From NCBI GenBank assembly GCA_017470505.1, contig JAFUYO010000016.1, positions 1 through 64,000 on the forward strand: a stretch of 64,000 nt of DNA, given 5' to 3'. Shown here one piece after another: positions 1 to 62,971 of the stretch. The stretch is from Butyrivibrio sp. GTDB lineage: Bacteria; Bacillota; Clostridia; Lachnospirales; Lachnospiraceae. The translations under genes were made by a program, and so were the position numbers. Position 1 is the stretch's first letter. Each line of letters starts with the position of its first letter. The notes under the pieces are model-generated. The model was given only the letters and a program-made list of their open reading frames with translations, was not told the origin of the DNA and did not search any database.

Positions 1-138
1 TAACTGAACATTTTACGCAGAATGATTTTTCAAAGGCAAGGAAGAAAACGCAGACAATGCGGGCATTGTTAAGGCTCTTGACGCAGCATTTGGGAAATCA
101 GGCAAGTAAAATGTTCAAGTTATTTCGCTACAGTTCCT
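1..138. repeat. MITE-like dispersed element, copy 1 (cut by window start)
   Basis: Aligns without gaps to positions 62819-62956 with four mismatches in 138 bases. The right end (about 106-138) is an imperfect inverted complement of the left end seen in the complete copy. An internal hairpin (acaatgc/gcattgt) lies near 55-70. No ORF is present. It sits downstream of the 3' end of the penicillin-binding protein gene. Confidence 0.85.
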
Positions 139-7556: not shown

Positions 7557-8330
7557 ATGAGACTGAGACCGTGTATTGACATACATAATGGCAGGGTCAA
7601 GCAGATAGTGGGCGGGAGCCTTACAGATGAGGGCGACAGGGCGAGAGAGAACTTTATCTCTTTTTATGACGCCGATCACTTCGCAAAGCTCTATGAGTCA
7701 AAAGGGCTTAATGGAGGCCACATCATTTTGCTCAATCCTGCGACGAGCCCTTACTACAATGAGACCAAAAGGCAGGGGGTGCTTGCGCTTTCAGCTGCTC
7801 GGGGACTCATGCAGATAGGCGGCGGAATAAACGATGAGAACGCACCGGACTTTCTTGATGCGGGGGCATCCCATGTGATCGTCACTTCCTTTGTGTTCAG
7901 GGACGGGGCTGTGAACATGGAGAACCTTGAGAAGCTCGTCAGGGCAGTCGGGAAGGAGAGGATAGTCCTCGACTTATCCTGCAAAAAGGCAGGGGATGAC
8001 TACTATGTTGTCACCGACAGATGGCAGAAGATGACAGATGTCAGGCTGAGCCTTGAAACAATGGATGAGCTATCAGACTACTGCGACGAGTTTCTGGTCC
8101 ATGCTGCCGATGTTGAGGGACAGCAGAGAGGCATCGAGGAAGGAGTTGCAGATATTCTCTCCGGCTTTGGTAAAAGACCTGTGACTTATGCCGGTGGCAT
8201 CCGGAATGTGAGTGATATAAAAGAGCTTCGAAGGCTCGGGCAGGGCAGGATAGATGTCACGGTAGGCAGCAGCCTTGATATTTTCGGAGGGGAGCTTAGC
8301 CTTGATGATGCTATCGCAGCCTGCAACTAA
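7557..8330 (+). CDS. hisA: eukaryotic-type HisA (ProFAR isomerase)
   Basis: Isomerises ProFAR to PRFAR in histidine synthesis. The (beta-alpha)8 barrel starts RLRPCIDIHNGRVKQIVGGS with Asp8 in the catalytic position. The sequence follows the branch best known from yeast HIS6 and plants rather than bacterial HisA: note NFISFYDADHFAKLYES, LQIGGGIN-type MQIGGGIND, VDVEGQ-type HAADVEGQQ and TYAGGIRN. It is 9 nt downstream of dapB, with a GAGGA site, so it is co-transcribed with lysine genes, not histidine genes. hisC is 33 kb away in this window. The branch assignment is from memory of the family; the enzyme assignment is firm. Confidence 0.88.
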   Translation: MRLRPCIDIHNGRVKQIVGGSLTDEGDRARENFISFYDADHFAKLYESKGLNGGHIILLNPATSPYYNETKRQGVLALSAARGLMQIGGGINDENAPDFLDAGASHVIVTSFVFRDGAVNMENLEKLVRAVGKERIVLDLSCKKAGDDYYVVTDRWQKMTDVRLSLETMDELSDYCDEFLVHAADVEGQQRGIEEGVADILSGFGKRPVTYAGGIRNVSDIKELRRLGQGRIDVTVGSSLDIFGGELSLDDAIAACN

Positions 8331-8348
8331 GGAACTGTAACAGTTCCT
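8330..8348. repeat. end-only derivative of the MITE-like element
   Basis: A perfect palindrome, aggaactgt-a-acagttcct, equals the two outer ends of the 62802-62956 element joined with the middle missing. Its first base is the last base of the hisA stop codon. It could also be an independent short palindrome. Confidence 0.5.
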
Positions 8349-8357
8349 AACGTCAAA

Positions 8358-45801: not shown

Positions 45802-46725
45802 ATGAAGATACAATTTACTAAGATGCATGGCTGCGGAAACGATTACGTGTACATCGACGGCGGAAAGGTTAATGTCCCTGACGATAAAAAGAAAGAGCTC
45901 GCAATCAGGCTCTCTGACAGACATTTCGGCGTCGGCTCCGACGGACTCATCTTCATAAATCCCGTGGAGGATGAGAATGTTGACTTTGAGATGGAGATGT
46001 ACAACGCTGACGGGTCGCGCTCTGAGATGTGCGGAAACGGCATAAGGTGCGTCGCAAAGTATGTATACGACAAGCGCCTTGCGGACAAAAAGAAACTAAC
46101 AATAGTAAGCGCCGGCAAAAACAAGTACATTGACCTGACTGTAGGGGAGGATGATCTTGTTGAGAGCGTCAGGGTTGATATGGGATCTCCGATTCTCTCA
46201 TCGCCCCTGATACCTGTTACTGTATCCGGTATCCCGGAAGGGTTTGGAAATAAGGATAATCTTTTAAACATCCCGTCCGATGCCTGTATCATGAGGAGCA
46301 TGGAGGCAGCAGGCAGAGAGTGGAAGGTGACATGCGTATCCATGGGAAATCCCCATGCGGTTGTCTTCCTGCCTGACGACATTGATCTTGATACCTTTGA
46401 TATTGAGAGGACAGGACCACAGTTTGAAAACCATGCCTTTTTCCCAAAGCGTGTCAACACCGAGTTTGTGAAGGTTGACGATCGGGGCAGTGTCCACATG
46501 AGAGTGTGGGAGAGGGGAACGGGAGAGACCCTTGCCTGTGGAACAGGGTGCTGCGCGACAACGGTTGCCTGTGTTCTTAACGGCTTCACCGGGACGCGCG
46601 TTGCAGTACACGTTCTCGGCGGGATAGTTACCTGCACCTGGGATGGAGACGCTGCCCACTCCGTGATCATGGAGGGACCCGCCACCACAGTGTTTGAAGG
46701 AGAGACAGAGTATCAGGAACAGTAG
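45802..46725 (+). CDS. dapF: diaminopimelate epimerase
   Basis: Interconverts LL- and meso-diaminopimelate for lysine and cell-wall synthesis. The two catalytic cysteines are in SEMCGNGIRCVAKYVYD (near residue 76) and ETLACGTGCCATTVAC (near 252). Start MKIQFTKMHGCGNDYVYID follows AAGGAGG. At 307 residues it is a little longer than the usual 275. The stop codon TAG lies within the end-derived repeat at 46715-46752. Confidence 0.95.
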   Translation: MKIQFTKMHGCGNDYVYIDGGKVNVPDDKKKELAIRLSDRHFGVGSDGLIFINPVEDENVDFEMEMYNADGSRSEMCGNGIRCVAKYVYDKRLADKKKLTIVSAGKNKYIDLTVGEDDLVESVRVDMGSPILSSPLIPVTVSGIPEGFGNKDNLLNIPSDACIMRSMEAAGREWKVTCVSMGNPHAVVFLPDDIDLDTFDIERTGPQFENHAFFPKRVNTEFVKVDDRGSVHMRVWERGTGETLACGTGCCATTVACVLNGFTGTRVAVHVLGGIVTCTWDGDAAHSVIMEGPATTVFEGETEYQEQ

Positions 46726-46752
46726 CAGAATGACTGATTCACTACAGTTCCT
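46715..46752. repeat. end-only derivative of the MITE-like element over the dapF stop
   Basis: aggaacagtagcagaatgac matches the left end of the 62802 element (aggaactgtagcagaaataac), followed after 9 nt by its right end, ctacagttcct. The middle 110 bp is missing. The ends pair with one mismatch. Confidence 0.55.
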
Positions 46753-46881
46753 TAAGTCAGCAAACAAAGCAGTAAACAAAGCAGTAATAAGTTTGAGGGT
46801 GTACAAATCCGTGATGATATATTAAAATAAGCTTTGTATGTGTTTATGATAAAAACATTTTAAGAAACAGGAGTAACGAAT

Positions 46882-62793: not shown

Positions 62794-62801
62794 TTTGCAT
62801 A

Positions 62802-62956
62802 AGGAACTGTAGCAGAAATAACTGAACATTTTACACAGAATGGTTTTTCAAAGGCAAGGAAGAAAACTCAGACAATGCGGGCATTGTTTAGGCTCTTGAC
62901 GCAGCATTTGGGAAATCAGGCAAGTAAAATGTTCAAGTTATTTCGCTACAGTTCCT
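62802..62956. repeat. MITE-like dispersed element, copy 2 (complete)
   Basis: 155 bp with imperfect terminal inverted repeats of about 32 bp: aggaactgtagcagaaataac at the left and gttatttcgctacagttcct at the right. Between them is a hairpin acaatgc/gcattgt. No transposase is encoded. No clear target duplication was seen. Copy 1 is at the window start. It is inserted in the 3' region of rplA, between the stop and its terminator. Confidence 0.88.
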
Positions 62957-62971
62957 AAGCATTATATTAAG

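Follow-up and report, generated by a model that had tools for sequence, protein, structure and literature searches.

The window analysed here, a stretch of 64,000 nucleotides that corresponds to C43:1-64000 of the host genome, carries a short segment near its right end and a nearly identical one at its very start. The question that they raise is whether such a segment is a mobile repeat or a conserved untranslated region. The earlier note had opted for the first, a miniature inverted-repeat transposable element (MITE) or an RNA-structured mobile repeat, recently active. The pairwise comparison on which it relied is reproduced: the two copies align without gaps and agree at 134 of 138 bases (1-138 against 62802-62956). 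The incomplete state of the first copy is explained by the window beginning where contig C43 itself begins. The completeness of the other copy was confirmed, but its size of 155 bp had to be corrected to 153 bp (62803-62955, forward strand), because one base of the duplicated target had been counted on each side.

This complete copy, assigned to subfamily A and lying in the left-to-right orientation, is indeed short, non-coding and bounded by terminal inverted repeats: a left terminal arm (62803-62834, forward strand) pairs with a right one (62924-62955, forward strand). It begins with GGAAC and stands between matched TWA flanks, i.e. a target-site duplication reading TAA at 62800-62802 and again at 62956-62958. 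An apical hairpin (62871-62888, forward strand), with a CAATG/CATTG stem showing compensatory changes and a CGGG loop at 62878-62881, occupies its middle; the position equivalent to 62882 is where some half copies start elsewhere. The second copy (1-137, forward strand) is cut by the contig start to element positions 17-153 and is followed by a TWA flank, TTA, at 138-140. As to the neighbours, the ribosomal protein L1 gene, rplA, lies upstream of the complete copy as had been stated, the terminator after the copy being a by-eye reading, and the gene adjoining the copy at 1-137 does code for a transglycosylase/transpeptidase (PBP).

Two much shorter forms occur in the window, each at the end of a gene, where one sits on the stop codon and the other provides it. 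The first is a minimal palindrome of 17 bp, GGAACTGTAACAGTTCC, at 8331-8347, between two TAA, the left of which is the stop codon of ORF 7557-8330, a histidine-biosynthesis gene. With its flanks (8328-8350) it ranks among the smallest forms of the family and may be a remnant. The second is a 36-bp hairpin at 46716-46751 (46713-46754 with its flanks), with element-like ends and unequal flanks (TCA and TTA), whose TAG is the stop codon of ORF 45802-46725, coding for diaminopimelate (DAP) epimerase.

A BLASTN search of the host genome (G000; 2.75 Mb in 56 contigs, 84% complete), as proposed in the earlier note, revealed at least 40 copies in the forward sense, 85-100% identical, from the 40 of 121 candidates that were scored, i.e. 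a multi-copy sequence far beyond two places. A restriction to one or two places in the same genes, set beforehand as the outcome speaking against mobility, was not seen. Since 15 of the 40 copies, among the matches listed, are at contig ends, the assembly breaks at these elements, which thereby also shape the fragmentation of metagenome bins. Exact matches to the end pattern TNAGGAACTGTAGC number 123 in the host, 55 of them forward and 68 reverse; the reversed control has 0.

The fetched loci were also scanned with loose end patterns, with no flank required (these patterns missed the 31-bp forms), and this gave 57 rows for the host and 18 for other genomes. Flanks are equal in 40 of the 57 and 16 of the 18, respectively; among rows with TWA on both sides the flanks match in 55 of 58 (host 39/42, elsewhere 16/16), and in 38 of 40 host rows once five nested, composite or non-member rows are left out. 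A length of 153 or 154 bp was found for 31 of the 57 host rows, one of which (L115:5599-5752) is not a member and was excluded from the alignments. Shorter forms that keep both ends measure 17, 36, 39-41, 45, 51, 59, 60, 66, 68, 87 and 97 bp; the exact pattern GGAACTGT-N(1-31)-ACAGTTCC is present at 9 places of the host genome, against 0 for its reverse, and two identical 31-bp forms, on C1 and C41, each lie between two TTA. None of 45 full-length copies (33 from the host, 12 from other genomes) interrupts an ORF of 90 amino acids or more. The element is thus a dispersed, multi-copy insertion with terminal inverted repeats at many intergenic sites.

Comparison within the genus provides an empty site at one locus. 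We located rplA in 61 of 79 genomes, host included, and read the best 30 loci, 29 from relatives and that of the host; the element was absent within 300 bp after rplA in 29/29 congeners, in line with the check for empty sites that had been suggested. In two of these loci (L215 and L224) there is a single, unpaired 8-base near match to an end, and in six (L211, L213, L222, L224, L225 and L226) the region after rplA opens with TTTGCATAA, the sequence also flanking the host copy. The claimed mobility is therefore backed by the many unrelated sites, the matched TWA flanks and the absence at rplA, and the claimed recent activity by near-identical copies, not only in the host: copies 96-100% identical to each other but with unrelated flanks occur in the genomes G369, G312, G284 and G110. 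BLAST of the element against another sample, of 61 genomes without G096 and G084, gave weak or partial matches in just three genomes other than the host, G026, G027 and G046; paired members were subsequently found in G096 and G084. The end pattern TNAGGAACTGTAGC is present in 40 of the 79 genomes, host included, and in 20 loci read for this pattern no paired end was seen, one coding-like stretch being recurrent. No match to the element was found in plasmids, none to the window copy in phages, and none in viral contigs for the one end pattern searched; one relative did match two fecal phage records without annotation, close to the end of the record. Two observations concern other repeats. In G106, a water deer rumen MAG (RGIG9278), ends of yet another type, TWA-GGAACTGTTAC, are numerous, and several lie about 130 bp from a contig start, which suggests another amplified subfamily; and in L151 (about 2650-2800) an array of a different palindromic repeat (GTCAAGGGGACGGTTCTTTTGTCTGG) adjoins a left-arm half copy.

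What distinguishes this element is its fold. The window strand at 62796-62962 is predicted to fold with -69.4 kcal/mol (z -11.0), and the opposite strand with -58.2 kcal/mol (z -9.9). Copies of the window's own kind were aligned in a set, A1, comprising 34 of the 45 full copies; these had been gathered by BLAST and end pattern, with no structure model, and are thus free of the selection bias of a pairing model. A1 folds into a single full-length hairpin of 51 pairs, 16 of which show compensatory change on both sides. Paired cells amount to 97.6%, against 87.8% in shuffled and at most 41.9% in slid alignments, and covariation scores 0.304, compared with 0.136 and at most 0.064, respectively. 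Two of the five measures are unremarkable: both-side changes were reached by 31 of 500 shuffles and further pair types by 348 of 500. The idea of an RNA-like structured repeat is thus borne out as far as conservation of structure is concerned. Since the reverse strand folds as well (38 of the 51 pairs are shared; 19 G-U and 10 A-C), A1 decides neither between RNA and DNA nor between strands.

One possible reason for such complementarity is that it is kept by DNA processes, namely template switching that corrects quasi-palindromes, rather than by selection for a fold. Both the sharing of pairs between the two strands and the fact that the two arms are near complements of each other would agree with this. 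The internal loops, however, stay imperfect and are conserved in sequence, instead of being corrected, and we consider this explanation unlikely, if worth keeping in mind.

Relatives of the element extend well beyond the genus, to many members of the family from gut and rumen. A covariance model, R1, was run on 397 Lachnospiraceae genomes, with at most seven candidates scored per genome, and found matches in 66 of them (the host among these), which represent 60 of 334 genera; a handful of the matches listed are incomplete. From these, 109 loci were taken (L231-L339) and 100 were searched with R1, which gave 125 matches, all spanning model positions 1-154; 105 are non-overlapping and 146-163 bp long, and only 2 of these 105 lie inside an ORF of 90 amino acids or more. 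The relatives keep the core hairpin, with the persistent motifs CGCAGnAT, GGCGTAGCGGGCTACG and AGACAAG, while ends and targets vary (TWA, CTAG and others). Besides the type of the window, TWA-GGAACTG, we found CTAG-TACAYCG and CTAG-TGTACTG, which are the commonest, and the further types ATTACTCCGGCGG, TATAGCAATCC and CTAGTATGACC. An automatic rule, applied to 104 of the 105 relatives, found the duplication CTAG/CTAG in 50 and TAA or TTA in 6, with no duplication in 29; 16 more are palindromic end pieces and were not counted. Asymmetric targets are directly duplicated as well, ATAG/ATAG, CTGG/CTGG and CCAG/CCAG in one relative each. The duplication is thus of fixed length, 3 bp (TWA) for the element of the window and 4 bp (CTAG-like) in many relatives. 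In one locus (L260 1695-3011, from G369), two identical, inverted copies of a relative, about 1 kb apart, enclose a short ORF, which we take to resemble TnpV, and might form a composite mobile unit.

For the relatives, covariation was assessed on A3, a realigned non-redundant set of 67 of 112 sequences with less than 85% mutual identity (mean about 51%). Both-side changes were observed in 55 of 58 pairs; paired cells reach 85.9%, against 63.2% when shuffled and at most 42.8% when slid, and the score is 0.596, against 0.203 and at most 0.153, none of 500 shuffles having reached any of the measures, a count that is tilted towards structure because the fold was predicted on A3 itself and the relatives had been collected by means of a pairing-aware model. 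Taken with A1, this means that the hairpin core is preserved by compensatory changes while the outer ends turn over. Rfam 15 offers no counterpart at its gathering score: no match passes this score in the window, nor is there any up to an E-value of 1 at the element, and in 15 loci of relatives nothing but tRNA and SRP RNA exceeds it. Two sub-threshold overlaps, mir-5014 in L237 (35 of 101 bits, E 0.0012) and BSnc120 in L245 (26 of 114 bits, E 0.086), are taken as chance hairpin matches. In pairs common to the folds of both strands, A3 has 163 G-U against 90 A-C cells, an excess that is a mild sign in favour of the left-to-right strand.

Incomplete copies give another view of the hairpin, as many of the unpaired ends turned out to be single right arms. 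In six half copies the first base is exactly the one following the apical loop (position 80; L031 is counted here in the reverse sense, subfamily C being inverted), and in a seventh it is position 79. All seven are directly preceded by TAA or TTA, which equals the outer flank in 5 of the 7. Other starts are at 75-77, in L100, L185, L187 and L198, the last being a 97-bp form with its own left end. A by-eye count over places on C1-C43, among the matches listed, gives 8 right against 1 left single arm, leaving out a 28-base right end on C34 and several right arms from the right-end search. Cleavage of a DNA hairpin at its tip with loss of one arm, or insertion of half a molecule, would both fit these half copies; random deletion does not explain the exact TWA at the junction.

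Half copies of this kind would also be expected from an RNA-mediated, SINE-like process, in which the left-to-right RNA folds, is reverse transcribed from its right (3′) end and is inserted, so that half copies are 5′-truncated insertions ending at the loop. Several of the above findings would be in keeping with it: the RNA-like conservation of structure, the G-U excess on the left-to-right strand in the shared pairs of A3, the TWA-preceded starts at the loop edge and the predominance of right arms. But the strand signal in A1 is weak, deletion can likewise yield half copies, and fixed 3- or 4-bp duplications at TWA or CTAG together with terminal inverted repeats, the usual signature of DDE transposition, point to a DDE enzyme. 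We therefore hold this process to be improbable. The same doubt applies to the broader proposal of a bacterial counterpart of SINEs, that is, a family-wide lineage of structured RNA or hairpins that keeps its folded core for its own propagation, swaps ends and targets between enzymes and leaves truncated copies cut at the tip, for which the chances appear low.

The orientation of the copies bears on a third possibility. Between co-directional neighbours, 46 of the 105 relatives are antisense and 14 sense (p 4e-5); the corresponding numbers for the 45 copies of the window's kind are 19 and 11 (p 0.20). All six copies in G210 are oriented against replication, as judged from GC skew sampled at 20 places, whose sign switches between 1.64 and 1.74 Mb. 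For 40 further regions of 20 kb, picked from the covariance-model places by genome and contig size before the skew was computed, the element runs against the skew direction in 33; by genome this is 18 of 21, with 2 the opposite way and 1 tie. Two genomes are near random, G369 with 3 same and 2 opposite and G284 with 2 same and 5 opposite, each including one copy of a different type; in the remaining 19 genomes 26 of 28 are opposite to the skew (p 3e-6). Local skew over 2-3 kb loci yields 69 opposite, 16 same and 12 unclear for the relatives, 9 opposite and 3 same for other rumen MAGs, and 12 opposite, 10 same and 8 unclear for the host copies. Because the host, G369 and G284, where orientation is near random, have near-identical copies, the bias seems to have arisen once the copies were in place, orientation probably being random when they insert and sorted afterwards. 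The directions of replication and of genes are largely confounded, replication being the better predictor in the few discordant places (3 of 4 regions, and the copy of G210 at 1552 kb).

A preference for one direction of replication is shown by single-strand transposons, and the bias seen in the 40 regions and in G210 would thus suit a REP/BIME-like element moved as single-stranded DNA by a hairpin-recognising Y1 (RAYT) transposase. Yet matched target duplications are not expected from such a mechanism and orientation is near random in the genomes with near-identical copies (5 same and 7 opposite in G369 and G284 together), which makes it very unlikely. Finally, a conserved, non-mobile cis-regulatory RNA or untranslated region, which the conserved structure and the intergenic position might have evoked, has practically no chance of being the answer and is ruled out at rplA, being contradicted by the 29 congeners lacking the element at this site, by near-identical copies with unrelated flanks and by the occurrence of both orientations.

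We are left with the reading that we consider probable, albeit with ample room for doubt: a non-autonomous, MITE-like lineage of about 155 bp, mobilised by a DDE transposase, with a selected hairpin core and switching ends. The way in which the hairpin relatives move is something that we infer, the fixed short duplications favouring a DDE transposase that acts in trans. Groups of the IS5 superfamily typically use TNA or CTAR targets, and the TWA and CTAG targets fit a MITE derived from it, no transposase with the same ends being found in the families searched. The enzyme would probably belong to this superfamily and act on the outer ends; a candidate mobilising insertion sequence would carry the ends GGAACTGTAGC or CTAG-TACAYCG, and different lineages may have acquired ends for different transposases. 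The core could have been selected for its own spread or for being tolerated by the host, i.e. it may be needed for movement or for host tolerance. The hairpin probably has a strand-dependent cost, by which copies in one orientation would be lost over time and some be broken at the tip.

Several points speak against a DDE-mobilised MITE. The longer element with matching ends and a transposase, which the earlier note had recommended to look for, was not found among three transposase families or in the stretches examined, a negative result weakened by the incomplete host genome (84%), by collapsed repeats and by the small number of families searched. The profile PF01609 gave one match in the host, IS1634-like (L099), with no element ends nearby, PF13340 none in 7 genomes, and PF13359 a match in 1 of 9. 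The latter is an intact-looking DDE_Tnp_4 insertion sequence (L199 1111-1980) of G096, the second genome of the genus with several copies of the element; it was rejected as a partner, its ends (GACAAGTTTCCTAAC, by-eye reading) differing from those of the element. Paired ends 600-3200 bp apart in the fetched DNA amounted to 7 pairs, all between small copies; the two identical copies of L260 likewise belong to the pairs that joined small copies when large elements were looked for. Besides, a plain MITE needs its ends alone, so that covariation throughout the core would not be expected; half copies missing one terminal repeat and yet bounded by TWA are not simple DDE products; many relatives have no duplication under the automatic rule, the palindromic pieces being uncounted; and two of the A1 measures are unremarkable.

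Bacterial MITEs are usually viewed as passive leftovers of a single insertion sequence. That compensatory change conserves the core in 60 of 334 sampled genera, with ends and targets turning over, suggests that the core serves a role in its own right, and three old questions become testable: what a small bacterial repeat requires for movement, whether the core acts as RNA or as DNA, and why orientation follows replication. Our search of open-licence papers found no report of this hairpin family. It could be among the 250 palindromic candidate RNAs found on both strands in human microbiomes, of which examples from Bacteroidetes are named (PMC8040213).

How does the element compare with known small repeats? 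REP/BIME sequences with their RAYT are, like the element, short intergenic palindromes in many copies, but differ from it in that it has matched duplications. In the portion of a review that covers the Correia, ERIC and RUP repeats and others, small bacterial repeats are described as shorter than 200 bp, mostly with TA ends, with transcripts forming stable stems and with transposases that are proposed rather than shown (PMC2229807). The element works like them, yet lacks TA at its termini. According to the same excerpt (PMC2229807), RUP of Streptococcus pneumoniae is a 107-bp repeat thought to be mobilised in trans via its ends, with IS630-Spn1 as proposed partner and TA targets, whereas no partner was found here. 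ERIC (IRU) of enterobacteria, as described there, shares with the element the short size (127 bp), target duplication, stable stem transcripts and a mobilising enzyme that has not been shown; compared by description, it differs in having TA at its termini, and covariation and end switching are absent from the account given of it in that excerpt (PMC2229807). The Correia elements (CREE/NEMIS) of Neisseria are likewise non-coding, of about 107 or 155 bp, with terminal inverted repeats, target duplication and long-stem transcripts, and again, on the basis of the description in the excerpt, have TA at their termini, in contrast to the TWA and CTAG-like targets found here (PMC2229807). They differ from the present element also in that its relatives are spread over 60 of the 334 sampled genera, with changed ends.
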